From: a virus
IMG/VR virus record: IMGVR_UViG_3300030503_000566
Span: 1 to 64,000 of that record
Reading direction: 5' to 3' (one strand)
Length of the DNA stretch: 64,000 nucleotides
A program made the translations under genes and the position numbers. Below, one piece after another: positions 3,556 to 61,001 of the stretch (position 1 is its first letter; every line of letters begins with the position of its first letter). The notes beneath the pieces are model-generated. The model worked only from the letters and a program-made list of their open reading frames with translations, did no database searches and was not told the origin of the DNA.

Positions 3556-3581
3556 AATATAAAAATTAAGTGGGATAACTA

Positions 3582-3613
3582 CAAAGATAGTAATTATCCC
3601 ACTATTAGCCAAA
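3582..3613 (-). promoter_or_regulatory. Promoter of recA
   Basis: Minus strand: TTTG (3610-3613), 20-nt spacer, TATCTTTG (3582-3589), an exact match to the Bacteroidota consensus. The predicted start site is about 20 nt upstream of the recA ATG at 3555. Confidence 0.8.
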
Positions 3614-10628: not shown

Positions 10629-10672
10629 CAAAAAGGTAGGCCCCAAAGATAGCTACTTCTCTGGAACCTACC
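10629..10672 (-). terminator. Intrinsic terminator after rIIB, nested with a promoter
   Basis: Arms 10663-10672 and 10635-10644 form a 10-bp stem (GGTAGG/CCTACC plus GU and GC pairs) followed by TTTTTG on the minus strand. The promoter -7 element of the next gene lies in its loop. Confidence 0.8.
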
Positions 10673-32866: not shown

Positions 32867-33316
32867 TTATTTATTTTTCCTACTCTCGCCGGGTTTTCCA
32901 TTAATTTCCTCTGATTCTCTGATAATCTTTTTAATAGGATCTTCCTCCACATTCCCTGCTTGGAGACCTCCCAACTCTACTTTCAAAACATTTATTTTTG
33001 GCCCCCCACTCCTACCTGTTGTGATTGCTAGATAACCTCCAAAAGCATACATAGCAAGAGCTAATTCAGTGGGGGTTTTGCATTGTTCAGATATTTCTGT
33101 AATGCAAGGAATAGCAAGGGTATATTTCCCAATCTTTTTGTCCTCGCCAGTAGCACTATCAAAAGCTTTTATAATCATCCCTGTAATTTCAGAACCTCTC
33201 TCATTAGAAATTCCAAAGAAAGAAAGTATAGAGCCCTCAAGGTCTAGAGAGTCAGGATTATATACTTTACCTATAGTGAGATCAAAACCCTCGGGAACAT
33301 TTTCAGTACCTTTCAT
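32867..33316 (-). CDS. Paralogue family member A, 149 aa
   Basis: 149 residues. It shows the pattern of a family repeated at 34171, 34639, 34999 and 36244: FGISNERGSEITGMI, later TPTELALAMYAFGGYLA. The C-terminus is Lys/Glu-rich. An 11-bp tandem repeat (33325-33368) lies directly upstream. A structured RNA candidate follows. Function unknown. Confidence 0.75.
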   Translation of the reverse strand: MKGTENVPEGFDLTIGKVYNPDSLDLEGSILSFFGISNERGSEITGMIIKAFDSATGEDKKIGKYTLAIPCITEISEQCKTPTELALAMYAFGGYLAITTGRSGGPKINVLKVELGGLQAGNVEEDPIKKIIRESEEINGKPGESRKNK

Positions 33317-33324
33317 AACTGATT

Positions 33325-33368
33325 GATTTATAGTTGATTTATAGTTGATTTATAGTTGATTAATAATT
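33325..33368 (-). repeat. 11-bp tandem repeat, four copies
   Basis: On the plus strand: GATTTATAGTT three times (33325-33357), then a degraded copy GATTAATAATT (33358-33368). The period of 11 bp is about one helical turn, and the array begins 8 nt before the start of gene 32867-33316. It could be an operator array; a chance slippage repeat is the alternative. Confidence 0.8.
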
Positions 33369-40761: not shown

Positions 40762-41094
40762 TTATCTATCCTTAATTTGTAGAAATAAAGTATCATTTCT
40801 ACTCCATACTAATAGCTCACTAGGATTCCCCCTGTCTCCTACACTATCAATGTCATGATCATCAGGCCAATCTATATAACTATATTTAGTAGGGCAATTA
40901 GGAGAATGGTGATGTACACTGCTAGTACTTGTGTCACTTAAAGCCTCTTGTATATCACCATTATCATTTGAGGCAGGTAATAAAAGTCGCTCTTCATCCC
41001 TATGACCATTATAATAGCCAATGGTATAAATAACACCAAATCCAAAAACTGCCACTAGTATTACTAATAATATACCTAATAGTTTCATAAACAA
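40762..41094 (-). CDS. Membrane-anchored protein, 110 aa
   Basis: 110 residues. An N-terminal transmembrane helix (LGILLVILVAVFGFGVIYTI) is followed by a His-rich cytoplasmic or periplasmic part (SSVHHHSPNCPTKY). The C-terminal strand LLVWSRNDTLFLQIKD is beta-like. Role unknown. Confidence 0.65.
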   Translation of the reverse strand: MFMKLLGILLVILVAVFGFGVIYTIGYYNGHRDEERLLLPASNDNGDIQEALSDTSTSSVHHHSPNCPTKYSYIDWPDDHDIDSVGDRGNPSELLVWSRNDTLFLQIKDR

Positions 41095-41113
41095 CGATTT
41101 AAAAGTTGATAAA

Positions 41114-41350
41114 TTAGAGTGGATTCATAAGGAGGATATTTACCTCATATAAATAACCTAGTTTTCCCAGTGCTAGTAATACTCCCTCCTTGTTATTTGA
41201 GGGGCCAAGATTGGGAAGAATCTCTCCACATGTACTAGAGGTGGGTTGAAGTTCTACTATTTCAAAAGTGAGTAATAATGGGCTCATCTCTGTGCCCCCA
41301 CCTGTAGTGATCTCTTTTTTGTATGTGAATGAGACAAAGTATTTTTTCAT
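41114..41350 (-). CDS. Small protein, 78 aa
   Basis: 78 residues, beta-rich N-terminus (MKKYFVSFTYKKEI), then a hydrophobic C-terminal half. The start overlaps the stop of the next micropeptide gene (ATGA). Function unknown. Confidence 0.65.
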   Translation of the reverse strand: MKKYFVSFTYKKEITTGGGTEMSPLLLTFEIVELQPTSSTCGEILPNLGPSNNKEGVLLALGKLGYLYEVNILLMNPL

Positions 41351-41475
41351 TCGTATAACGTATTTAATAGAGTTAATATTCCAATTATGATAATAAAAAA
41401 CAGAAAGATAATTGTAGTGACTTTTCTATCCCTATCATCATCGTTAGGAGTAAATGAAGTTGTATCATGAATCAT
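41347..41475 (-). CDS. Membrane micropeptide, 42 aa
   Basis: 42 residues with one transmembrane helix (VTTIIFLFFIIIIGILTLL). Both ends overlap neighbours by 4 nt (ATGA), which supports real coupled translation. Function unknown. Confidence 0.65.
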   Translation of the reverse strand: MIHDTTSFTPNDDDRDRKVTTIIFLFFIIIIGILTLLNTLYE

Positions 41476-41645
41476 ATACCTTTGGTTTTATCTTTCTCAA
41501 GATCGGATATTCTTTTTTCCAATCCCTCAACCTTTGTAGCAAGGTTAATGATACTGGCTGATATCTTGCTAATTAACTGATCTAAACTACTCATTGTTAT
41601 AGCTATCTCGATCATTTGTTGGGCTAATTCTTCCATAAAATTGTT
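41472..41645 (-). CDS. Coiled-coil protein, 57 aa
   Basis: 57 residues from the ATG at 41645, downstream of the terminator at 41664-41696, so the longer frame to 41699 is rejected. Strong heptads: ISASIINLATKVEGLEKRIS. It overlaps the membrane micropeptide gene and may act with it (inference). Confidence 0.65.
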   Translation of the reverse strand, partial: NNFMEELAQQMIEIAITMSSLDQLISKISASIINLATKVEGLEKRISDLEKDKTKGI

Positions 41646-41663
41646 AATTTTAACATTAATAAT

Positions 41664-41696
41664 AAATAAAATGGCCCCTTGTAGAAACAAGAGGCC
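41664..41696 (-). terminator. Intrinsic terminator
   Basis: GGCCTCTTGT/ACAAGGGGCC on the minus strand (one U-G pair, loop of 4) is followed by ATTTTATTTATT. It ends the unit of 41727-41954. Confidence 0.85.
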
Positions 41697-41726
41697 CAAC
41701 TTAACTCTAAATTACAAACGCTACAA

Positions 41727-41954
41727 TTACTTTAATTGAGGGAATATTAGCATCTCCCATACACTGAGTTTAGATTCAGTAGTTTCAGGGGTAGCCTCCA
41801 TCAGATCTTTACTAAGATCCCTGAAGAATTGTAATTTGGTAGCATCTGCAAACGGTTGGGTACTTATACCCTCCATTAGAGTTATTAATTTCTCGAAATT
41901 AGGACTAGAGCCTCTTATTTGAGCAAGCTCTTGCTCTGTCAATAAATGTTGCAT
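41727..41954 (-). CDS. Small helical protein, 75 aa
   Basis: 75 residues, helical, with a Glu/Leu-rich pattern (MQHLLTEQELAQIRG). The 10-bp element AACTCTAAAT lies 11 nt upstream of the start. Function unknown. Confidence 0.65.
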   Translation of the reverse strand: MQHLLTEQELAQIRGSSPNFEKLITLMEGISTQPFADATKLQFFRDLSKDLMEATPETTESKLSVWEMLIFPQLK

Positions 41955-41980
41955 AGATTTTTGTTATTTAGAGTTTAAAA

Positions 41981-42178
41981 TTACACACTCCCACTTCTAC
42001 TCCAACTCCCACTCCAACCCCAACTCCCACTCCCACTCCCACTTCTACTCCAACTCCCACTTCTACTCCCACTTCTACTCCCACTTCTACTTCTACTCCA
42101 ACTCCCACTCCCACTCCCACTCCCACTCCCACTCCCACTTCTACTCCTGTATAATTTATTCTGATGTGAGGTAATCAT
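41981..42178 (-). CDS. Ser-Arg/Ser-Gly repeat protein, 65 aa
   Basis: 65 residues, of which about 50 are an (R/G)S repeat (SRSGSGSGSGSGSGSWSRS). It is encoded by a hexanucleotide tandem array (CCCACT/TCTACT/CCAACT on the plus strand). The ATGA overlap with 42175 argues that it is translated. The repeat could be unstable, giving strain-to-strain length changes. Alternative: non-coding repeat array. Confidence 0.55.
   Translation of the reverse strand: MITSHQNKLYRSRSGSGSGSGSGSGSWSRSRSGSRSGSRSGSWSRSGSGSGSWGWSGSWSRSGSV
41989..42147 (+). repeat. Hexanucleotide tandem repeat array
   Basis: About 26 six-base units of CCCACT with TCTACT and CCAACT variants, in phase with the frame of the leftward gene 41981-42178. 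The plus strand reads almost without A or G runs (pyrimidine-rich), so strong strand asymmetry is expected. Confidence 0.85.
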
Positions 42179-42453
42179 AAAGTTGATTTAAAAGATTCAC
42201 CGAAAGATTCAATTGCTGAATTTTGTATATACCATTCAGAGGCAAGTTTTTGAGCATCTTTAAATTTACTATCACTAAAAGCTCCTGTTTCAAAGACTTG
42301 ATATACATCCTTTAATTTAATACAACTTTCATTTACTCCTACTAATTCACCATAGTAAAAGTAATTAAAGCAAAAAATAAGAACTTTCTTACCTAATAGT
42401 GCAAATAAACCCTCTATAGGGACATCGATAACTTGTGTTGGTAACATTTTCAT
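42175..42453 (-). CDS. Unknown protein, 92 aa
   Basis: 92 residues. LFALLGKKVLIFCFNYFYYGELVG looks like a KOW- or beta-barrel-like core, and the C-terminal half is helical. The start may be Met1 or Met3. Function unknown. Confidence 0.65.
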   Translation of the reverse strand: MKMLPTQVIDVPIEGLFALLGKKVLIFCFNYFYYGELVGVNESCIKLKDVYQVFETGAFSDSKFKDAQKLASEWYIQNSAIESFGESFKSTL

Positions 42454-42478
42454 TTTATTTGATTTAAGTGTTTATAAA

Positions 42479-42730
42479 TTATTTAATACCTGCGTGTTGT
42501 TTTATATAATCAAGATTGTTATTGATGGATATGATCTCTTCTGGTAATAAGGGGAAGCCCATTCTATATCTGCATTTAAATTCTCCCTCCTTAAAGTCAA
42601 ATAGATGACGAGGGCTAGTGTTCTTATAAGTATTGCGATATAACCTACTCATCGCAGAGTAGGCATCAGAATCTAAAAGTGATTCCATGTATAAAGGTGG
42701 TCCCTCTTCAATTCTCTTTTCCATCTTCAT
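42479..42730 (-). CDS. Small protein, 83 aa
   Basis: 83 residues, charged, with MGFPLLPEEIISINNNLDYI near the end. It overlaps the upstream 59-aa gene by 23 nt. Function unknown. Confidence 0.65.
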   Translation of the reverse strand: MKMEKRIEEGPPLYMESLLDSDAYSAMSRLYRNTYKNTSPRHLFDFKEGEFKCRYRMGFPLLPEEIISINNNLDYIKQHAGIK

Positions 42731-42887
42731 GTTGGTTTATATATTCAAGGGTGGTATTATAGGCAGTTTTTTGGCTCCCTTTTCTTATAAGCTTATGGAG
42801 ATCTTTAGGCTCCTCAAGCATTAGCTGATTCCACTCCTCTTGGAGCTTATTAATCCTCATTTTTAACCAAGATTTAATCTCTTCCAT
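42708..42887 (-). CDS. Small helical protein, 59 aa
   Basis: 59 residues, all-helical and basic (EEIKSWLKMRINKLQEEWNQ). Open from ATG 42887 to TGA 42708-42710; it overlaps both neighbours. Function unknown. Confidence 0.6.
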   Translation of the reverse strand: MEEIKSWLKMRINKLQEEWNQLMLEEPKDLHKLIRKGSQKTAYNTTLEYINQHEDGKEN

Positions 42888-42966
42888 TATTGTGTGTATT
42901 CGGTTGTATTATTACTGCTAGGATTATAAATACTAACAGTAGAATGAATGCCATAGTAAATAACAT
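42874..42966 (-). CDS. Membrane micropeptide, 30 aa
   Basis: 30 residues with a transmembrane helix (MAFILLLVFIILAVII) and a short polar tail. It overlaps the helical gene's start by 14 nt. Function unknown. Confidence 0.55.
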   Translation of the reverse strand: MLFTMAFILLLVFIILAVIIQPNTHNNGRD

Positions 42967-42978
42967 AAAATGGTGTAT

Positions 42979-43431
42979 TTAATAGTTTTTTAGCAAGAAT
43001 TCCTCCTGCAATTCATGTTTAAACTCATAGTGAAACCTCTCTTTCTCCTCTTTAATAGCATCTTTGACTGACCATCCAAGAGCTACTCTAGCCAATACAG
43101 AGAATGTAGAAGTTCTACCATGCCCATGAGTACAGTGTATAAGAGCAGGTTCTCTAAGCTTTGTTACATCTGCAATGAACCTGTTAGCCTGTATCACAGT
43201 AGGAATTTCATGATCCTTGACTCTGAACTGTTTTATCTTTATCCCTATACCTTTTACTGATCTTATATCAATATTCTCAGGTCTAAGATCAAATATTACC
43301 TTGATTCCCAATACGTTATGTAACCACTTATATTCATACCTATAGAGAGGTTGAGCACTACGGTATATATTTCTCCCCTCATCTAGTATACCAAAATTCC
43401 TAAGGGGAACTAGTCCAAACTCCTTTTTCAT
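42979..43431 (-). CDS. Dual-specificity / tyrosine phosphatase
   Basis: 150 residues. The catalytic loop HCTHGHGRTST (C100 with R106) is the HCxxGxxR signature, with a general-acid region VKDHEIP near residue 73 and the N-terminal IYRSAQP typical of DSPs acting on Tyr(P), lipids or RNA 5' ends. In phages it may remove 5'-phosphates of RNA or dephosphorylate host proteins. It is the gene just downstream of tRNA-Ile. Confidence 0.8.
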   Translation of the reverse strand: MKKEFGLVPLRNFGILDEGRNIYRSAQPLYRYEYKWLHNVLGIKVIFDLRPENIDIRSVKGIGIKIKQFRVKDHEIPTVIQANRFIADVTKLREPALIHCTHGHGRTSTFSVLARVALGWSVKDAIKEEKERFHYEFKHELQEEFLLKNY

Positions 43432-43453
43432 TAGTTTAAATTTAAGAATTAAG

Positions 43454-43527
43454 TAGGCTCATCAAGACTTGAACTTGAAACCCCCAAGGTATAAGCTTGG
43501 TGCTCTAACCAATTGAGCTATAAGCCC
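43454..43527 (-). tRNA. tRNA-Ile (anticodon UAU)
   Basis: A full cloverleaf on the minus strand: acceptor GGGCTTA/TGAGCCT (two wobbles), D-stem GCTC/GAGC with GG in the loop, anticodon stem CCAAG/CTTGG with loop CTTATAC (anticodon TAT) and T-stem TCAAG/CTTGA with loop TTCAAGT. The discriminator is A; CCA is not encoded. It reads AUA, a codon the phage uses often but many hosts read inefficiently. Confidence 0.9.
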
Positions 43528-43530
43528 ATA

Positions 43531-43773
43531 AAAATACAACCTACAATTAGCTCGGTTGTCTTATGGCTTATTACTGAGCATGTCCCTCCTCAGTTTATCT
43601 GGCTAATCAGATATTTGCAGCTACCTATATATTGCTGTTTTGCCATAGGCCCAAACCCCTATGATCCTGAACTTTCGCCCTTACAGCAGCTTTTTTCCTT
43701 GTACTTCGGTATACAGGCATATTAAAAATCAAGGCTAGATCTTATTGGAACCCTGCAAATAGTACTCCAATGA
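43531..43773. ncRNA. Candidate structured non-coding RNA next to tRNA-Ile
   Basis: No gene fits here, yet hairpins follow each other: ACAACC/GGTTGT (43536-43559), ACTGAG/CTCAGT (43573-43594), TATCTG/CAGATA (43596-43613), TGCTGT/ACAGCA (43633-43688) enclosing CATAGG/CCTATG, a C(TTCG)G-capped stem (43697-43717) and ATTGGA/TCCAAT (43744-43771). ATTTGCAG (43613-43620) also matches CTGCAAAT (43753-43760), a possible long-range or loop contact. The TTCG cap and a T-run at 43691-43696 favour the plus strand; the local genes point the other way. Family unknown. Confidence 0.55.
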
Positions 43774-43775
43774 GT

Positions 43776-43874
43776 TTATTTATGAAGAAACAACATTACA
43801 ATCATGAGCTTACTATGATGAGGTCTTGCCTCAATAAACTTCATTGCTATAGCATCTAAGTCTATCTTATCCAT
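43776..43874 (-). CDS. Micropeptide, 32 aa
   Basis: 32 residues, N-terminal acidic helix (MDKIDLDAIAMKFIEA) and a hydrophobic end. It lies just upstream (in the leftward unit) of the structured region. Function unknown. Confidence 0.5.
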   Translation of the reverse strand: MDKIDLDAIAMKFIEARPHHSKLMIVMLFLHK

Positions 43875-43891
43875 AGTAATAAATTTAAAAG

Positions 43892-44299
43892 TTAAAGTCT
43901 TTTATCAGTATGAAACTGTTGAATTTGCTGACCCTGATTTACCCAGCTTCCCGGCCCCATATCATCAGGACGATAATAGACTGTATGACAACTCTCACAT
44001 TGCTTTTTCTCCTTGTTCAGAGTACTGATATCATGCAGTCGACCACCATCTTCAGGACATTCATTATTGCATATCTTTTCGTAGTTGTTCATAGATAACT
44101 TGTTTAAACGTTCTGTTTTTGCTGTATCCAGTTTAAGCATAATAACATCTTGATCAGTGGAAATCATAGATAATTGATTTAAAGAATTAAATAAAGCTAG
44201 TTCTTTGTGTTTTACTCTTAGGGTAGCTGTACCTCTCACCACTGGAAAACTAGCAAGCCGCTGCTTCTTTAGTAAGTTAATGATACCCAAGTTATACAA
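43892..44299 (-). CDS. Unknown protein with a C-terminal zinc-ribbon-like motif
   Basis: 135 residues. The first 80 are helical and basic. The second part has NNECPEDGG and CESCHTVYYRPDD, with Cys/His spacing like a zinc ribbon. It may bind nucleic acid. The 96-nt gap upstream holds hairpins but no gene. Confidence 0.6.
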   Translation of the reverse strand: MYNLGIINLLKKQRLASFPVVRGTATLRVKHKELALFNSLNQLSMISTDQDVIMLKLDTAKTERLNKLSMNNYEKICNNECPEDGGRLHDISTLNKEKKQCESCHTVYYRPDDMGPGSWVNQGQQIQQFHTDKRL

Positions 44300-44395
44300 G
44301 GTTCATAACCCCTTGAATCAGTATACGTCTATACTGCTTGTACATGGTCTAATCCATACGCTACTCCTTTGAGATATAACTTAAGTATCAAAGAG
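44300..44395. other. Non-coding gap with two hairpins
   Basis: CAGTATA-CGTC-TATACTG (44319-44336) is a perfect 7-bp stem, and CTTTGA...TCAAAG frames a second stem near 44367-44394. No T-run is present, so they are not simple terminators. They may be part of a leader or a processing site. Confidence 0.5.
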
Positions 44396-44800
44396 TTATG
44401 CAAACTGTAATTCCTCAATAGCTGGTAATGAGGATATTAATTCTTCCGCTGTAATAGGGGGATCGCTAATCTCAACCGATAATCTTCTTTGATAGAAAGA
44501 CACCAAGCTTCTAATATCCATCAATGCAGCTAATACTCTTTGTTTAGGAGTTTCTTGGTTATAGGAATTAGATAACCCATCATTTATACTAGTAACCTCT
44601 GATTCAAGGTATGTCCTTATTATTCTTTGGAGTGCAACTGCCTCTTTAGTAACTTCTAAAAGACCAGTACGGCTGGATCCACTCCCACAATGCCCCAATG
44701 CACAGAATGCTGTTCTCTCTGTATTGTTATAGTTACCCTCGTACCAATTTTCCTCAGGTATTGCCTGAAACTTTGCGATAAAATAATCGACTGTGTACAT
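44396..44800 (-). CDS. Paralogue of 46658-46972, 134 aa
   Basis: 134 residues from the ATG at 44800 (MYTVDYFIAKFQAIPEENW). Shared with the gene at 46658: AFCALGHCG, an EA-AL segment, ND-L-N-SY and ETPKQRVLAALMDI. The CxxxGHCG Cys/His spacing may bind metal. A longer start to 44842 includes a hydrophobic leader that overlaps the next gene. Function unknown. Confidence 0.7.
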   Translation of the reverse strand: MYTVDYFIAKFQAIPEENWYEGNYNNTERTAFCALGHCGSGSSRTGLLEVTKEAVALQRIIRTYLESEVTSINDGLSNSYNQETPKQRVLAALMDIRSLVSFYQRRLSVEISDPPITAEELISSLPAIEELQFA

Positions 44801-44811
44801 AATAAATGTTT

Positions 44812-44979
44812 TTAATGTGATAAATAATATAAACATGACCATAGGAGTATCGCAATAAAGAAGGTTATCACATTAAGATTGTTTTTTTTAACCCCTCCTT
44901 CGAGAGAATCTTCGATAAAGCTAATAAGATATAGCCATGTAAAAACTAGAGCAAATGCAAAAACGAATGTAGGTAACAT
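44812..44979 (-). CDS. Membrane protein, 55 aa
   Basis: 55 residues from the ATG at 44979, which lies after the stop of the gene upstream (44991). Two transmembrane segments (VFAFALVFTWLYLISF and VITFFIAILLWSCLYYL). Function unknown. Confidence 0.6.
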   Translation of the reverse strand: MLPTFVFAFALVFTWLYLISFIEDSLEGGVKKNNLNVITFFIAILLWSCLYYLSH

Positions 44980-44990
44980 AAATATGATTT

Positions 44991-45296
44991 TTATAATATG
45001 AAAGTAAAGCCCCAAAGGACTAATAGGGTAATCCATGGTCCAATTAATGCCCCTGCCAATTCATACCAGACCTCTCCTTTTTTCTGTTGCTCGTTCTTCA
45101 TGCGGAGAGGCCTAAATATTCCCACAATTAGCATTACAGCAACTGAACCATAAAAGGAAAGATTGAAATGGAGACCTATAATAGGAAAGTACCATAAACA
45201 GGCTTTGTAAAGCACAAAACCCTGTATAAATGCTCCCAATATTATAAGAATGGGAATGAGAAATATTCCTCCTACCACTGCAAGAAATGATTTCAT
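44991..45296 (-). CDS. Membrane protein, 101 aa
   Basis: 101 residues with about three transmembrane helices (GIFLIPILIILGAFIQGFVL, then two more). Possibly a holin-like or envelope protein, but it lies in the early small-gene block, so a host-membrane modifier is as likely. Not proven. Confidence 0.6.
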   Translation of the reverse strand: MKSFLAVVGGIFLIPILIILGAFIQGFVLYKACLWYFPIIGLHFNLSFYGSVAVMLIVGIFRPLRMKNEQQKKGEVWYELAGALIGPWITLLVLWGFTFIL

Positions 45297-45319
45297 AAAT
45301 AGAGTTTTTAAATTGTTGA

Positions 45320-45496
45320 TTAATTATCATGTTCCTCATCATAATCAGGATCATCCAAAGGGTCAATGGTATTAGCCCCCCTTATGTTCTCTGCTGAGAG
45401 ATTATATATTATATCACCCCTTGAGTTCTGTGACAGCAAATACTTCCTTATCTCCTCAATAGTGAATTTGTCTTCAATATCATATGTTTGTGACAT
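45320..45496 (-). CDS. Small acidic protein, 58 aa
   Basis: 58 residues: MSQTYDIEDKFTIEEIRKYL, then an acidic C-terminal tail (DPLDDPDYDEEHDN). Function unknown. Confidence 0.6.
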   Translation of the reverse strand: MSQTYDIEDKFTIEEIRKYLLSQNSRGDIIYNLSAENIRGANTIDPLDDPDYDEEHDN

Positions 45497-45518
45497 AAAT
45501 GATATTTTAAATGGTTAA

Positions 45519-45614
45519 TTATTCCTCAAAGAGCTTTATATCAGCTTCCATGAGTTTATAGAGTGCAATAGCCCATAATAGAGCTACTATACCAAAAGCA
45601 ATATTTCCTAGCAT
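45519..45614 (-). CDS. Membrane micropeptide, 31 aa
   Basis: 31 residues with a transmembrane helix (MLGNIAFGIVALLWAIALY) and a short charged tail. Function unknown. Confidence 0.55.
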   Translation of the reverse strand: MLGNIAFGIVALLWAIALYKLMEADIKLFEE

Positions 45615-45646
45615 AAAATTAGAAGTTTAAGTGGTTATTAAAATGA

Positions 45647-45877
45647 TTAATGATTTGATGGTTTGTAAAAAGGGCACATTTTCTCATCTTTTAAGAATCT
45701 ATCAAGATGGTCTCTAACAGCTATTAATCTCTCTTTTACCTTTAGATAGTCCTCAGAGTGATCAAAATGAGTCCACATTGAGACATCATCTTTACCCCAA
45801 ACATCAAACTCTAATATCAAATTAGGTTGTCCATGCTTAGAGATTAATGCCTCCCTTTGTTTGTTTGAGAATGACAT
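45647..45877 (-). CDS. Unknown protein, 76 aa
   Basis: 76 residues with an alpha/beta pattern (QPNLILEFDVWGKDDVSMW). A degenerate copy of the 17-bp element (45896-45908) lies about 18 nt upstream of its start. Function unknown. Confidence 0.65.
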   Translation of the reverse strand: MSFSNKQREALISKHGQPNLILEFDVWGKDDVSMWTHFDHSEDYLKVKERLIAVRDHLDRFLKDEKMCPFYKPSNH

Positions 45878-45916
45878 GTTTAATGATTTTTGGTGTTAAT
45901 GCTATATAATGTGGTG

Positions 45917-46132
45917 TTAATTAATGCCCCTATAGGTAAGAATGGCCTTAAGTTTGTCAATAAATACCTGCCGTTGTGATATCCCACTTTCAGCAAATAT
46001 TATTTCTTTTTTGTATTGAGGAGGATTTCTCCTATAAACAGCTAAAAGTGCATTTTTCTCATCTATTTCAGCTTGAGTATCAGCTATATCTTGCTGTATC
46101 TCATTAGTGGAAATATGATCGAACTCTTTCAT
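45917..46132 (-). CDS. Coiled-coil small protein, 71 aa
   Basis: 71 residues, all-helical (TNEIQQDIADTQAEIDEKNA), probably a coiled coil. Function unknown. Confidence 0.65.
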   Translation of the reverse strand: MKEFDHISTNEIQQDIADTQAEIDEKNALLAVYRRNPPQYKKEIIFAESGISQRQVFIDKLKAILTYRGIN

Positions 46133-46153
46133 AATAAATTGATTTATAAAGGT

Positions 46154-46366
46154 CTATGATGCACTCCTAATAGTTATAGTTTTACCTAGATTGTTAGTTC
46201 TATTCTTACCTTTCCTCTTCATAGTCTCTTGGACTCTTGAGGTAGTAAGACCTAAAGCTTTGGCACAACCAGTAATAGTCTCAAATACTCCTATAACTCT
46301 CTTAGTTTCAACATCATAGACCTTACATTTTGTCTTATCAAATGCAAATCCCTTAATATTACTCAT
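46154..46366 (-). CDS. NUMOD1-like DNA-binding protein, 70 aa
   Basis: 70 residues. CKVYDVETKRVIGVFETITGC, then AKALGLTTSRVQETMKRK, matches the NUMOD1 helix-turn-helix used as a DNA-recognition module in homing endonucleases. Here it stands alone, so it may be a remnant or a small regulator. It overlaps the next gene by 8 nt. Confidence 0.65.
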   Translation of the reverse strand: MSNIKGFAFDKTKCKVYDVETKRVIGVFETITGCAKALGLTTSRVQETMKRKGKNRTNNLGKTITIRSAS

Positions 46367-46505
46367 TGGTTATACCTCTACTGATCAAAATGGATTTCAG
46401 TTTATGAATTTCTTTTCTTGTATCACCTGCCTTTTTTAATTCAGCACGTTTATCCCGGATATCTTGTAATATCTTTGCTGTAGGCCATTTGCTAAAATCT
46501 TCCAT
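46359..46505 (-). CDS. Small helical protein, 48 aa
   Basis: 48 residues, helical and basic (AKILQDIRDKRAELKKAG). It overlaps the NUMOD1-like gene start by 8 nt. Function unknown. Confidence 0.6.
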   Translation of the reverse strand: MEDFSKWPTAKILQDIRDKRAELKKAGDTRKEIHKLKSILISRGITNE

Positions 46506-46513
46506 AAATAGTT

Positions 46514-46624
46514 TTATTCAGCCCTCTCATAAAGGTCATTCTCCTGATCTATAGTAAGGCTATTGTCTGCTGTAATGACTAATAGCCTTATATAATTTGC
46601 TGGATTGTTGGGAAATGTGTACAT
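46514..46624 (-). CDS. Micropeptide, 36 aa
   Basis: 36 residues (MYTFPNNPANYIRLLVITAD...). The AACTCTAAAT element ends 9 nt upstream of the start. Function unknown. Confidence 0.55.
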   Translation of the reverse strand: MYTFPNNPANYIRLLVITADNSLTIDQENDLYERAE

Positions 46625-46657
46625 AGATGGTTGATTTAGAGTTATTTAATATATTTA

Positions 46658-46972
46658 CTACAATTTGTTTAGTTTGCCTTGCTTTATATCATTAAGGTAG
46701 GCCAATATCCTTAGTTTAGGAGTATCCTGTGTGTACAGTGGACTTAGATTATCATTTACGACATCTATCCTGGGGAAATAATTCACTGTTAAACTGTATA
46801 GAGCAGAAGCTTCTACTGAATCATCTATTTCATTCTTAGCTCCACATTGCCCATAAGCACAATACCTAACTGAAGATCCCTGATCATCCCTACAGATAAA
46901 CTGGTACATACACCACTTATCATCAGGTATATCTTCAAACTTCTTAATATAGTGGTCGATATCGTATTTCAT
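46658..46972 (-). CDS. Paralogue of 44396-44800, 104 aa
   Basis: 104 residues from the ATG at 46972 (MKYDIDHYIKKFEDIPDDKW). Shared with the sister gene: YCAYGQCG, an EA-AL stretch, ND-L-PLY and DTPKLRILAYLNDI. A longer frame to 47023 is not needed. Function unknown. Confidence 0.7.
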   Translation of the reverse strand: MKYDIDHYIKKFEDIPDDKWCMYQFICRDDQGSSVRYCAYGQCGAKNEIDDSVEASALYSLTVNYFPRIDVVNDNLSPLYTQDTPKLRILAYLNDIKQGKLNKL

Positions 46973-46994
46973 AATACATTGATTTTTAACTGGT

Positions 46995-47183
46995 TTATAA
47001 TATTTTAAAATCAATCTCAGCACTTGTAATATAAGAGAAGAGTTTATAATAACCCTCTTCAGTCATACTGTAGGTATAAGCGTTTGAGGTTGCACCCTCC
47101 CATTTAACATAATATTGGTAAATATCATTACCAAATCTTCTATCAATAGGATCTCTTGAGCGAGCTACATATATCTTCTTCAT
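46995..47183 (-). CDS. Small protein, 62 aa
   Basis: 62 residues with a Tyr-rich centre (DIYQYYVKWEGATSNAYTYS). The AACTCTAAAT element lies 8 nt upstream. Function unknown. Confidence 0.6.
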   Translation of the reverse strand: MKKIYVARSRDPIDRRFGNDIYQYYVKWEGATSNAYTYSMTEEGYYKLFSYITSAEIDFKIL

Positions 47184-47199
47184 AGTTAATAATTTAGAG

Positions 47200-47262
47200 T
47201 TAAAATAGAAGTATTAAGACCAGAAGTAGCATGATAAATAGCACGTATAGTATAATCTTCAT
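47200..47262 (-). CDS. Hydrophobic micropeptide, 20 aa
   Basis: 20 residues (MKIILYVLFIMLLLVLILLF), a single membrane helix, like the one at 33582-33644. The AACTCTAAAT element precedes it by 8 nt. Very short, so confidence is limited. Confidence 0.5.
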   Translation of the reverse strand: MKIILYVLFIMLLLVLILLF

Positions 47263-47264
47263 AA

Positions 47265-47363
47265 TCAATGATTTAGAGTTTTGATAAATACCATTTGAAC
47301 ACTTGTCTCGCTATTCTTAATTACTAAGTATAGCTCACCCTGATTTGAGAGTATTAAATACAT
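47265..47363 (-). CDS. Micropeptide, 32 aa
   Basis: 32 residues starting MYLILSNQGELYLVIKNS. The beginning resembles the 37-aa peptide at 47694-47807 (MYLILTKYGE), so they may be paralogues. Function unknown. Confidence 0.5.
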   Translation of the reverse strand: MYLILSNQGELYLVIKNSETSVQMVFIKTLNH

Positions 47364-47396
47364 AGTAATAAGATTTAATGGTTAATAATTAAATGA

Positions 47397-47672
47397 TTAG
47401 AGAGTCATTGTGTTATAGATAGTCTCAAGATTATCAATAACATACTGAGAATCAGCCTCTTGCAATGGTTTCTCTACTCTATTTTTGGTAGTGACAACCG
47501 CTGTATCCTTTATACCCCTCCTCGGATTACTATCTAGCCCAAAAGCAATTGCATTATCCTTATCTATAGTACACCCAATTAGTAAAAGACCATCACTGTA
47601 CTGTATCTTATCAATAATACCAAGGGCTAAGGCTTTATTAAGAAGCCTAACTTGTTGTTCTGAGAGTTTCAT
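47397..47672 (-). CDS. Small protein, 91 aa
   Basis: 91 residues, helix then beta (LLLIGCTIDKDNAIAFGLDS), with a basic middle part. Function unknown. Confidence 0.65.
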   Translation of the reverse strand: MKLSEQQVRLLNKALALGIIDKIQYSDGLLLIGCTIDKDNAIAFGLDSNPRRGIKDTAVVTTKNRVEKPLQEADSQYVIDNLETIYNTMTL

Positions 47673-47693
47673 GTTAATATAAATTAATGATTA

Positions 47694-47807
47694 TCAATTA
47701 AATAAAGAATTGGGTTGCATAAATGTTGACCACTTCATTAAATACTCAAAGAAGCGCCACTCATTATCCTCATTCACCTCACCATATTTGGTTAATATTA
47801 AGTACAT
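47694..47807 (-). CDS. Micropeptide, 37 aa
   Basis: 37 residues (MYLILTKYGEVNEDNEWRFF...), aromatic-rich. Its beginning resembles the 32-aa peptide at 47265. Function unknown. Confidence 0.5.
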   Translation of the reverse strand: MYLILTKYGEVNEDNEWRFFEYLMKWSTFMQPNSLFN

Positions 47808-47889
47808 GATTTACAATTTATGAATTGTTAATTAGTTGAAAATGAGAGTGATATACATTAGATACCACTCTCCAATCCGAACCCTAACC

Positions 47890-48201
47890 TCAACCAATAG
47901 CATTTGGTTCAAATAATATAATAAAAGTCTCAAATCTCCTACCTTCATAATTAAACTGAGCTTTACCATTCACTAGATCAACATCAAATGATTTATACCA
48001 AAGGTCACAATCTTTAGCATGTTTATACTCAGGGCCATATATACACTTAATATAAGAGAGATCATTAAGTCTCATCTTAGTGGTAAGGTTGTATAAATGG
48101 CCAAATATTTCAGGGAATACGGCCAATAACTCATTCCTTTCCTTCATATTCTTGGAATGTTTATACATTCTAACCAAATATGCGATTTGTGCGGTAGTCA
48201 T
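47890..48201 (-). CDS. Unknown protein, 103 aa
   Basis: 103 residues: helical first half (MTTAQIAYLVRMYKHSKN) and a beta-strand second half. AACTCTAAAT begins 2 nt upstream of the ATG. Function unknown. Confidence 0.65.
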   Translation of the reverse strand: MTTAQIAYLVRMYKHSKNMKERNELLAVFPEIFGHLYNLTTKMRLNDLSYIKCIYGPEYKHAKDCDLWYKSFDVDLVNGKAQFNYEGRRFETFIILFEPNAIG

Positions 48202-48248
48202 AATTTAGAGTTTTAATGTTAATAAAATAGTATTAATATAACAATGAG

Positions 48249-48500
48249 CTACTCGATAGCCAAGTAATAGCTGGCGACCAGCTTAACCAGCTTAACCAGC
48301 TTACGCAATACGAGTTTAAGCCTCAGCTTAATCTGGCATGGAGTATTATTTATAGCAAGCGTACACTCTTTATGCTCATTAGTATTCCTATTAGAAGAGA
48401 ACATAATATGACCGGTATTTTGACATGCAACTATACAATTGCACCAGTAAGTCACAATAGGTTTAGCCTCCTCAAAATAGATTTGTTGTAAGTCTTTCAT
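48249..48500 (-). CDS. Cys-containing protein with a 9-nt repeat, 83 aa
   Basis: 83 residues. CNCIVACQNTG near the N-terminus, then a basic LVLRKLVKLVKLV end made by a 9-nt repeat (gcttaacca). AACTCTAAAT lies 8 nt upstream. Function unknown. Confidence 0.6.
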   Translation of the reverse strand: MKDLQQIYFEEAKPIVTYWCNCIVACQNTGHIMFSSNRNTNEHKECTLAINNTPCQIKLRLKLVLRKLVKLVKLVASYYLAIE

Positions 48501-48539
48501 TTTCAGATATTTAGAGTTAAGTCAATGATAATGAATAGT

Positions 48540-48689
48540 TTATAACGAATCTCTATATGAGTATATCATAAGAGCTTCATCATAGGGAAAAAGATAAACA
48601 GCACCCTTAATAGAATCAGCTAGTCTTTTAGCTTCTTCTTTGTTATCAAGAGTAATAAAGTGCTTAAAATCACAGGTAATAGTATACAT
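48540..48689 (-). CDS. Small protein, 49 aa
   Basis: 49 residues with an alpha/beta pattern (MYTITCDFKHFITLDNKEEA). It is the first gene of the leftward small-gene block; both AACTCTAAAT (2 nt) and the 17-bp element (22 nt) precede it. Function unknown. Confidence 0.6.
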   Translation of the reverse strand: MYTITCDFKHFITLDNKEEAKRLADSIKGAVYLFPYDEALMIYSYRDSL

Positions 48690-48691
48690 AG

Positions 48692-48701
48692 ATTTAGAGT
48701 T
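48692..48701 (-). promoter_or_regulatory. AACTCTAAAT element
   Basis: One of seven exact 10-mers (also 41966, 46634, 47192, 47271, 48203, 48509), each a few nt upstream of a start codon on the minus strand. See findings. Confidence 0.7.
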
Positions 48702-48711
48702 TAATTAGTTG

Positions 48712-48728
48712 TTAATGCCATATAGAGC
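48712..48728 (-). promoter_or_regulatory. 17-bp recurring element (GCTCTATATGGCATTAA)
   Basis: Read on the minus strand 22 nt upstream of the first small gene. Also at 61220-61236 (same), 54427-54443 (one mismatch, opposite orientation) and partly at 45896-45908. Candidate phage promoter or operator. Confidence 0.55.
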
Positions 48729-48864
48729 TAATACCGTTACTGTTTATAACACTGTTATTTTATCCTAACACTGTTAGATATGGGTGATATTACACCATTT
48801 ATAGACTTGAGTAGTCTAAACACGTAAGTCTTCAGTGTAATACAATATATAATGGAGTAAAACA

Positions 48865-48878
48865 TTGACAATTGTCAA
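48865..48878. promoter_or_regulatory. Perfect palindrome TTGACAATTGTCAA
   Basis: A perfect 14-bp palindrome in the non-coding region, the size and shape of a dimeric repressor operator. It is not seen elsewhere in the window by eye. Confidence 0.55.
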
Positions 48879-48926
48879 CAAATGGATATAAATGAGTAAG
48901 AAATGTAGTAAATAAAGGGGAATATA

Positions 48927-48958
48927 TTTGGTTATGTCAGTAATACTGCATACATTTG
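48927..48958 (+). promoter_or_regulatory. Rightward Bacteroidota-type promoter without a downstream gene
   Basis: TTTG (48927-48930), 20-nt spacer, TACATTTG (48951-48958). The next 340 nt rightward hold no gene, so it would make a non-coding or antisense transcript. Confidence 0.6.
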
Positions 48959-49247
48959 CATTTCAGTTTAACATTTCATTAGGACACATAGATAAGTTAT
49001 AGGCTACGGACTCACTGGCTACTATACCCCTAAGTAATTGATTCACTGAAAGTTGCCTCATTTGTCCCACCTTTTTCACTACCTTAGTGTCAAAGGTTTT
49101 GTTGTTTGTGTTACTGTAGGTAATTGAGTAAAGAGGGTTGCTAAAGTTTTATACCATTATATATAGTAACACTCAACCTACCCATAGTGTGAATAATGTA
49201 GTACATTACTGAAAAATGTAGTACAAGGGAGAACCTATATACTGTTA

Positions 49248-49282
49248 TAATAGGGACCAGCCATTACAGCCAGTCCCTATTA
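49248..49282. terminator. Hairpin downstream of 49297-49659
   Basis: A 10-bp perfect stem TAATAGGGAC/GTCCCTATTA encloses a short inner region. A T-run is missing on both strands, so it is a likely transcript end or processing hairpin rather than a classic terminator. Confidence 0.5.
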
Positions 49283-49296
49283 ATCAGCCATTTACA

Positions 49297-49659
49297 TTAG
49301 AAGGCAGCACCCGCCAGTTTGGCAACAGCAGCCTCAGAGAGATTGAGAGTCTTAGCGACCTTCTGCACTTCGGCAGCAACCTCTGCTTCGAGAGTACCAA
49401 CCTCAGCAGCAGCCTCGATAGCACTCACTTTGTCAGGAAAGGTAGCAGTGATCTGCCAGATTTCGCGAGGTGTCTCCAGTTTAACCAGATTGCCATCTTC
49501 GTCAGTGGTCATTGTCTGTGTAGTCTTGATGGCATAGGCATACTGGCCTGCTACAAGCTCCATGGTCTTAGTCCTTGGAAAGAATACTCTGCCTGTGATG
49601 TCATTGGCATAAGTCCTGTCGCTGCCACTTTTGGCAACATTTGCGATTTTGATTAACAT
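49297..49659 (-). CDS. Unknown protein with GC-rich codon use, 120 aa
   Basis: 120 residues. The N-terminal half is basic and beta-rich (MLIKIANVAKSGSDRTYAND). The C-terminal half is an Ala/Glu/Val-rich helix (EAAAEVGTLEAEVAAEVQKV) ending KLAGAAF. The gene is clearly richer in G and C than all neighbours, typical of high expression or recent arrival. It is monocistronic between the two gene blocks. Function unknown; a nucleoid- or DNA-associated protein is possible (inference). Confidence 0.75.
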   Translation of the reverse strand: MLIKIANVAKSGSDRTYANDITGRVFFPRTKTMELVAGQYAYAIKTTQTMTTDEDGNLVKLETPREIWQITATFPDKVSAIEAAAEVGTLEAEVAAEVQKVAKTLNLSEAAVAKLAGAAF

Positions 49660-58397: not shown

Positions 58398-61001
58398 ATG
58401 ATCATTTTACATACTAAAGATACCGATATTCGGTATGCATATCTTAACCTATATCCAGACCAATTTGTCTCTGAGGAAGAGAAGAAGACTGATGACTGGA
58501 TAAAGCCCACGTTAGATTATTTTGCAAATGTAGCATACGCTCAGTATAATAAGAATGTTATGACCTTTACCAGAAACTACAAACTGGTTAAAGGCATTAT
58601 TGATAGAGGAGATTTTTTTGAGAATCCTGTTGAGGTTCAAAGCTTTACAGATACCTTAATGCAGAATGTTGACCTTCCCTCAAATATAGTCCATTATCCT
58701 ATTCTCAATCCTCCCCTTAATACCCTTGTTGGTGAATTAGCCAAAAGGCCAGATAATACCTTTGTTAGAGCTTTTGATGATGAGAGTAAATCTGAAGAAT
58801 TGGAAGCAAAGACAGATATGCTCATGCAGTTTATTATGCAGCAGGGTAAACAGGAGGTTTTAAGAAAGCTTGCATTGCAAGGTGAGAAAGTTCCAGATGA
58901 AAAGGATTTAGATCAAATGACTATGGATGAGGTTGAGGAGTATATGACTGATTACACCTCCTTAGCTGAACAATGGTCTAATCATATATTAAAAGCCATG
59001 AAGATGGAGTTTAATATGAAGGAGAAATCTGAGGATGCCTTTAGAGACTTGTTAATTAGTGGAAGACAGTTCTATCATATATTTGAAGATAACTCTAAAT
59101 TAGGATTTAATATCGAGGTAGCTAACGTAAAAAATGTATGGTTTTTAACAGTCCCCGATAGGAAATATACCTCCGAACCTACCTCCAGAGAAGGTTGTTA
59201 TGCAGGAGGAATTATAGAGGTAATGGAACTCTCCGAAATTATAGAGAAGTTTGATCTCACAAAAGAGGAGATTGATCATCTTAAAAATGGTGTTAAACAG
59301 TTCAACTTATTAAATGTCAGGGAGTCCAACTTAATCAATACTAGAAATGTAGGTATAAACTCAGTCACATATGATGTGTATGATCCTTTAGTATTACAGG
59401 AGAGACTAAAGGCTGAAAGCTTCCTCAAAGAAAATAATGACCAACTTAAAGACTTTCTAGGCCTCTCTAATAACGTAACGGCTTATGGTAATAAATATGC
59501 TGTAATGAGGGCTTACTGGATTTCTAAGAAAAAGATGGGGAAACTAACCTTTCTAGATGAACAAGGGGTAGAGCAGGTGATCCAAGTAGATGAACATTAT
59601 GTAGAGGGTTCCATACCTACAGAGATATCAATTGAGTGGGGATTTATCAATCAGTGGTATCAGGGAGTTAAGATAGGACCAGATATTTACCAACTAAAAC
59701 CTTTTACCCTTCTAGATTATTGCCCCCTTATAGGTCTTGTACACGAGATCAAGAATACAGAGTCTCGTGCCCTAGTGGATTTGATGAAGAATTATCAGAC
59801 AATTTATAATGTCTGTATGAATCAAATCTTCCAGTTACTCTCTAAGGAGATAGGTAACGTGTATCTTACCTCTATAAGGCAGGTTCCTACTCCTAAGGAT
59901 GGAGATGGACAGGATGCATTAGAACTATTTGAGGAACAGGCTCGTAAAAATGGTATCCTTTATGTGGATGATAGTCCTGAGAATATGAAGGCCCCCTCCA
60001 ATTTCAATCAGAATAGGAATGTAGATCTCACAAGAACTCAAGAAATAGAATCTCGCTTTAAGATAGCTACACAAATGAAACAGGAGTGCTGGCAGCTAGT
60101 GGGGGTCTCTGAGCAAAGAGTAGGTGAGGTAGCAGCTACCGAGACTGCAACAGGCACACAAGCTGCTCTCTCTCAATCATTTGCACAGACAGAGCCTTAT
60201 TTTGCAGCCCACTCGTATGTTCTAAATATGCTTTATCAGGCTATCTTAGATGCTGCCCAATATGTAGAGAGTACTAAACCTCTCTCCACTATTAAGTATG
60301 TATCCTCTGAGGGTGAGAATGCTTTTATACAAGTTAATGGTAAGGATATTAAGAATAGGGATCTTAAAGTATTTGTTACTGATAGAGCAGATGATTTACG
60401 TAACTTACAGGATATCAGGGGTTTATCTCAAGAGATGTTACAAAATGGTGCCTCTGCTTATGAGATAATTAAATTCTATAACACCACCTCCATGAGGAAG
60501 ATGGAACAGATTGCCAAAAAGCTTAAGGATCAAAATGATCAAATGCAGCAGCAGGCAATGCAACAGAAACAGCAAGAGCTTGATCAGCAACAGAAACAAC
60601 ATGAGGCTGAACTTGAACAAGCTGCTCAACAGCATGAATCTGACCAAGAAAATCAAGATAATCAAAACGATCTTGATAGGATTAATAAGAGAGAGATTGC
60701 TCTTATTACCGCCCTCGCAGGAAAGAATGATCCATTTGGTCCAACAACTCCAGAGGGAGAACCAGACATTCTTGCTTATACTAGCTTGCAAAATGACCAA
60801 GCTAAGGATGCACAAGATCATGATCTTGAGAATAGAAAGTTCCTACAACAGCAAAAAGAGCATAGTGATAAAATGGGAGTGGAATACAAGAAGATTCAGG
60901 CTGAGAAGGAGAGAACTAAAGCGGATTTAGCTAAAGGAAGAATGGAACTTAAGAAGGCTAAGATTGCAAAAGCTGCTCAAGCAAAGAAAACCAAGAAGTA
61001 A
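58398..61001 (+). CDS. Portal protein
   Basis: 867 residues, starting directly after the TerL stop. Residues 1-640 have portal-like helices and wing/stem regions. The last about 170 are Gln- and Lys-rich coiled coil (QMQQQAMQQKQQELDQQQKQ). Very large portals with Gln-rich tails are typical of crAss-like phages. It forms the 12-fold channel for DNA. Confidence 0.85.
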   Translation: MIILHTKDTDIRYAYLNLYPDQFVSEEEKKTDDWIKPTLDYFANVAYAQYNKNVMTFTRNYKLVKGIIDRGDFFENPVEVQSFTDTLMQNVDLPSNIVHYPILNPPLNTLVGELAKRPDNTFVRAFDDESKSEELEAKTDMLMQFIMQQGKQEVLRKLALQGEKVPDEKDLDQMTMDEVEEYMTDYTSLAEQWSNHILKAMKMEFNMKEKSEDAFRDLLISGRQFYHIFEDNSKLGFNIEVANVKNVWFLTVPDRKYTSEPTSREGCYAGGIIEVMELSEIIEKFDLTKEEIDHLKNGVKQFNLLNVRESNLINTRNVGINSVTYDVYDPLVLQERLKAESFLKENNDQLKDFLGLSNNVTAYGNKYAVMRAYWISKKKMGKLTFLDEQGVEQVIQVDEHYVEGSIPTEISIEWGFINQWYQGVKIGPDIYQLKPFTLLDYCPLIGLVHEIKNTESRALVDLMKNYQTIYNVCMNQIFQLLSKEIGNVYLTSIRQVPTPKDGDGQDALELFEEQARKNGILYVDDSPENMKAPSNFNQNRNVDLTRTQEIESRFKIATQMKQECWQLVGVSEQRVGEVAATETATGTQAALSQSFAQTEPYFAAHSYVLNMLYQAILDAAQYVESTKPLSTIKYVSSEGENAFIQVNGKDIKNRDLKVFVTDRADDLRNLQDIRGLSQEMLQNGASAYEIIKFYNTTSMRKMEQIAKKLKDQNDQMQQQAMQQKQQELDQQQKQHEAELEQAAQQHESDQENQDNQNDLDRINKREIALITALAGKNDPFGPTTPEGEPDILAYTSLQNDQAKDAQDHDLENRKFLQQQKEHSDKMGVEYKKIQAEKERTKADLAKGRMELKKAKIAKAAQAKKTKK

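Follow-up and report, generated by a model that had tools for sequence, protein, structure and literature searches.

Short repeats placed directly in front of phage start codons are known from the Start-Associated Sequences (SAS) of cluster K mycobacteriophages, which are 13 bp long, GC-rich and contain the Shine-Dalgarno (SD) core AGGAG (PMC3203893). In our hands, SAS were recovered from phage Angelica at 16 forward sites, nearly all of them directly before starts. A signal of another kind has been described in F. johnsoniae, where A residues at positions -12/-13, -6 and -3 promote initiation, A is enriched from -14 to -11, and SD pairing is unused (Baez et al., PMC6847099). Finally, the RegA protein of T4 binds AU-rich sites that overlap or just precede the AUG (PMC3014915). 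How translation starts in phages of Bacteroidota is hardly known, because the hosts do not use SD pairing, and the same holds for the timing of their small early genes.

Here we analyzed a decamer, AACTCTAAAT, repeated in a crAss-like phage record of 85,557 bases (85.6 kb), the first reading of which covered a window of 64,000 nt, that is, the whole stretch of DNA presented above. Proteins including the portal and the large terminase have matches in families of crAss-like phages; the nearest annotated relatives belong to Crassvirales and similar phages (22-30% identity), and the terminase has relatives in IMG/VR at 28 to 68% identity. Promoters of the Bacteroidota type, TTTG-n-TAnnTTTG, lie upstream of several replication genes, so that the host is likely a member of this phylum. 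The closest annotated relative of the portal (PP438436.1, 29%) has the cyanobacterium Leptolyngbya as its recorded host; the leaders of that genome are nonetheless A-rich in the Bacteroidota manner, and it may be worth verifying this host assignment. Above the Rfam threshold, only tRNAs were found.

SAS and the decamer are alike in being short, asymmetric, exact repeats that occur in one orientation a few nucleotides ahead of where unrelated, non-structural genes start, and in being specific to a phage group. In our record, 7 of the 9 decamer copies are located 1-11 nt before an ATG, and the start-associated copies are confined to the region at 41.9-48.7 kb, with none preceding structural genes. 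However, unlike the 13-bp GGGATAGGAGCCC with its SD core, AACTCTAAAT is AT-rich and carries neither AGGAG nor another SD core, and no inverted repeat of the ESAS type was seen upstream of it. Given the absence of the SD-containing 13-mer, the decamer is an analogue of SAS, not a member. An inverted SAS of Angelica was considered as a parallel to the inverted decamer copy described below and dropped after a test: it is located inside gp92, whereas the inverted decamer belongs to a 3' UTR that runs into a terminator-like hairpin. With the initiation region of Bacteroidota, the leaders analyzed here share A enrichment from -14 to -10, lack of SD sequences and weak structure, but the signal in the former is compositional (PMC6847099), whereas the repeats seen here consist of one exact decamer and of an AAC-n-TTAAA frame. 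The RegA operators, located at the start codon in numerous early genes, resemble the decamer in being AU-rich and unstructured, but take in the AUG and lack clear sequence conservation (PMC3014915).

Exact copies before small leftward genes

The preliminary description listed seven decamers in minus-strand sense, each 1-11 nt before an ATG, and all seven are present. Going leftward from 48692 to 41966, the measured gaps are 2, 8, 1, 8, 8, 9 and 11 nt. In this order, the copy at 48692..48701 precedes a 49-aa ORF (48540-48689), the copy at 48509..48518 an 83-aa ORF (48249-48500), and the copy at 48203..48212 a 103-aa ORF (47890-48201). The fourth copy (47271..47280) precedes a hydrophobic ORF of 20 codons (47203-47262) and falls within the final coding portion of the 32-aa ORF upstream. 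The fifth (47192..47201), in front of a 62-aa ORF (46995-47183), shares bases with the stop codon of the preceding ORF. The remaining two, at 46634..46643 and 41966..41975, precede ORFs of 36 aa (46514-46624) and 75 aa (41727-41954), respectively. A shorter form, AACTCTAT, had been reported before the starts at 45296 and 41350. At the former, it occupies 45299..45306 on the minus strand, 2 nt before the ATG of ORF 44991-45296; near 41350 it is also present, but the gap of 16 nt makes this site less convincing.

A motif search of the whole record brought the total to nine copies, all within the window. The two that had been missed are on the plus strand, at 41703-41712 and 59091-59100; the latter, inside the portal gene (58398-61001) with no start codon next to it, is probably a chance copy. 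Dinucleotide shuffles yield 0.42 copies per window on average and 2 at most. When one mismatch is allowed, the 22 matches hardly exceed the 13.9 expected by chance, and thus the signal is the exact decamer. Start association was counted within 12 nt of ORFs of at least 30 codons, with 15 shifted windows as the control. By this measure, AACTCTAAAT ranks first among all decamers of the genome, with 6 of its 9 copies before ORFs of at least 30 aa (p = 2.5e-8), compared to 7e-5 in the best shifted window; the site serving the 20-codon ORF is excluded from this count. Furthermore, among 2000 simulations under a leader model, none produced any decamer repeated 7 times. Elsewhere in the window, at 33317-33357 on the minus strand, AACTATAAATC, one letter off the decamer, is repeated three times in tandem directly before the ATG at 33316.

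The products of the seven genes, 20 to 103 residues long, are unrelated to one another, so that gene duplication does not account for the repeats. Those of the proteins that were scanned against PHROGs had no match, and our scans retrieved no close relatives of the block proteins or of the block DNA. Several other leftward genes of this region have recognizable features. A low-complexity protein rich in Ser, Gly and Arg is encoded by GTGGGA/GTAGAA hexamer repeats in ORF 41981-42178, the product of 42979-43431 carries a tyrosine/dual-specificity phosphatase signature (Pfam PF03162, E 7.6e-10), and the small proteins encoded at 44396-44800 and 46658-46972 are paralogous (35% identity) and belong to no assigned family.

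The AAC-n-TTAAA leader

The preliminary description proposed three roles for the decamer, namely, part of a promoter, a signal for translation, or one for RNA processing. Its position at start codons, the associated A-run, the weak structure and the existence of a looser form favor the second, and the promoter part lost ground (see below). On balance, we consider it probable that the phage has a translation-initiation leader of the Bacteroidota type, one that would resemble SAS in its working but dispense with SD pairing, and that AACTCTAAAT is its commonest exact version and acts on RNA. The general leader would consist of AAC, a short spacer, TTAAA, then 9-12 nt and the ATG. The looser pattern was defined as AAC-n(0-4)-T(1-3)AAA[AT] about 9-12 nt before the ATG. 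Within the block of approximately 36 small leftward genes (40762..49659, minus strand), AAC-n(0-4)-TTAAA is found in 16 of 36 leaders, whereas the control windows average 0.7. Fewer leaders carry it in the replication block (5/47), and it is almost missing from the leaders of rightward genes (1/14 and 1/20). When the 36 block starts are aligned, position -12 is A in 83% of the leaders and position -11 in 75%, the genome-wide frequencies at these positions being 0.66 and 0.71; the bases ahead of the A-run are often AAC plus pyrimidines. The GC content of the block leaders is 20%, and SD-like tetramers occur in 1 of the 36.

The decamer appears to occupy the slot of the general leader in five of the seven genes and to adjoin a second copy of the slot in the other two. 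In the latter, the spacing to the ATG is short: the copy before 48689 overlaps an upstream AACTAATTAAA, and the copy before 48201 has AACATTAAA upstream, just as the short form before 45296 is preceded by AACAATTTAAA, so that each of the three adjoins an AAC-n-TTAAA at the usual spacing of 10 nt. All seven decamer leaders have an A at -13 and/or -12; in five, the AAA of the decamer itself falls within -15 to -10, and in the other two, a neighboring A-run does, so that in every one of the seven an A-run is located at or next to -13 to -10. Predicted structure in these leaders is weak (mean -2.0 kcal/mol). Thus, the decamer would be part of an A-rich, unstructured ribosome-landing site serving tightly packed small leftward genes. 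That it acts in translation is the most likely role, considering its position and the established work in the phylum; we further infer that the small-gene block is co-transcribed and early.

The looser leader extends to the relatives. AAC-n-TTAAA was start-associated in all 15 crAss-like relatives tested, reaching 36 of 167 leaders versus 2.5 in the nearest long relative, and 13 pooled relatives contained 199 occurrences versus 89 in shuffles that preserve leader composition. By contrast with this pattern, CTCTAAA was not enriched in the relatives (3 versus 4.5 expected). Nor did the decamer itself prove to be repeated likewise in relatives: the 22 related records searched contain 0-4 scattered copies each, and hence offer no orthologous leader for comparison. 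Among sampled viral contigs in which the decamer precedes ATGA, none was comparably enriched for it. Since AAC-n-TTAAA is common to the relatives and exceeds what leader composition predicts, the decamer, as judged from these comparisons, represents a single fixed variant of a leader that the group shares, amplified only here among the phages examined.

The scan for decamers tied to start codons also revealed such decamers, each phage having its own, in two other crAss-like phages, namely, AACATTATCA in cr52_1 (5 of 6 copies) and TAATTAAATA in crAss002 (4 of 6 copies). Phage-specific decamers of this kind may therefore be a wider habit of the crAss-like group. In another crAss-like relative (record G018), three start-associated copies contain CTACGGAGGAGGTGAG, an extended Shine-Dalgarno sequence. 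Together, the exact leader repeat and the AAC-n-TTAAA of the relatives provide concrete sequences for addressing initiation strength and joint control.

Exact repetition and possible joint control

The preference of the ribosome for A leaves the conservation of the C-T-C-T letters and the sevenfold identity unexplained, which makes room for a sequence-specific regulator. The exact repetition may result from selection for recognition by a trans factor or from recombination that copied the leader between gene cassettes, and it is possible that the decamer marks the seven genes for joint control, as a regulon.

In the first case, the decamer would be the operator of a trans-acting RNA regulator, either a phage protein or an antisense RNA, governing a translational regulon of seven genes. 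We regard this as rather unlikely, although it is compatible with a translation leader and both can hold together. The exact identity of the copies exceeds the needs of the ribosome, and the position of the RegA sites of T4 offers a precedent (PMC3014915), but those sites are not exact repeats. A further observation concerns the inverted copy, which is located on the plus strand at 41703..41718, in the presumed 3' UTR of ORF 41727-41954, itself a decamer gene. The decamer of this gene extends to AACTCTAAATaACAAA, which is complementary to the 3' UTR at 15 of 16 positions, so that 41703..41718 and 41960-41975 form a 16-nt inverted repeat (94%). The 3' UTR reads TTTGTAATTTAGAGTTAA, followed by a 10-pair hairpin with a U-rich tail; this intrinsic-terminator-like hairpin (41673..41696, minus strand; 6 G-C pairs, tail AUUUUAUUU) lies 6 nt downstream of the antisense copy. 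The match is an outlier among genes: complementarity between a leader and its own 3' UTR reaches 16 nt here, at most 11 nt in all 151 other genes, and at most 14 nt in 1485 genes of relatives.

Such a 3' UTR could fold the message back onto its own leader, or it could serve as an antisense RNA in trans. Judging from the sequences, an RNA with this antisense 3' end could base-pair with each motif leader over 10-14 nt. That RNA released from the 3' UTR at 41672-41735 pairs with the seven start sites, its own included, and thereby switches the small-gene block off or on jointly is nevertheless quite improbable. When the antisense 3' UTR was compared to all start regions, motif genes accounted for just three of the ten most stable predicted duplexes; the predicted fold of the whole transcript leaves the two arms unpaired; and the antisense site is single and was noticed after the fact. 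A complementarity of 14 nt between leader and 3' UTR also involves the start-associated decamer of crAss002, where 0.79 antisense decamers are expected per 50 kb. No clear terminator adjoins it, and neither stretch differs in the relative cr107_1. Three terminator-like hairpins on the minus strand of our phage (39911-39930, 40453-40484 and 41673-41696) are only about 17-36 nt before start codons, and in two of them the U-run merges into an AAC-rich leader.

Alternatively, the decamer could be a recombination junction or a copied leader that spread among shuffled small-gene cassettes and adds no function to that of the general A-rich leader. The intervals between the copies are made up of whole genes, and three paralogue pairs attest to gene duplication in the block, both of which would suit such spread. 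Yet none of the paralogue pairs has the decamer as a common leader, and the likeness between sites ends sharply at the decamer, which is too short for usual homologous recombination. Neutral spread is accordingly a doubtful account of the repeats.

Promoter elements

As noted in the preliminary description, the small-gene block is devoid of host-type promoters: the minus strand at 41.0-49.7 kb contains 0 TAnnTTTG, with 5.0-5.7 expected (P(0) = 0.002-0.006). This gap could be filled by a phage promoter element upstream of each gene, for example, one read by the virion RNA polymerase, which is thought to transcribe the early genes of crAss-like phages (PMC8375218). For the decamer, this role is very unlikely, because nothing is conserved in its surroundings (no column in at least 6 of the 7 sites within 45 nt on each side, a result with which a promoter consisting of the decamer only would still be compatible) and two copies are 1-2 nt from the ATG, where transcription starting downstream would yield leaderless or truncated messages; in addition, the gap before the ATG is variable (1 to 11 nt), a coding end contains one copy and another falls on a stop codon, and the relatives share the looser form in the position of a translation-initiation signal. 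Repeats of CTATAGGT were also considered as phage promoters and rejected, being mostly inside genes. Among the host-type promoters elsewhere in the genome, some are overlapped by hairpins, at 3569-3603 and 10635-10672.
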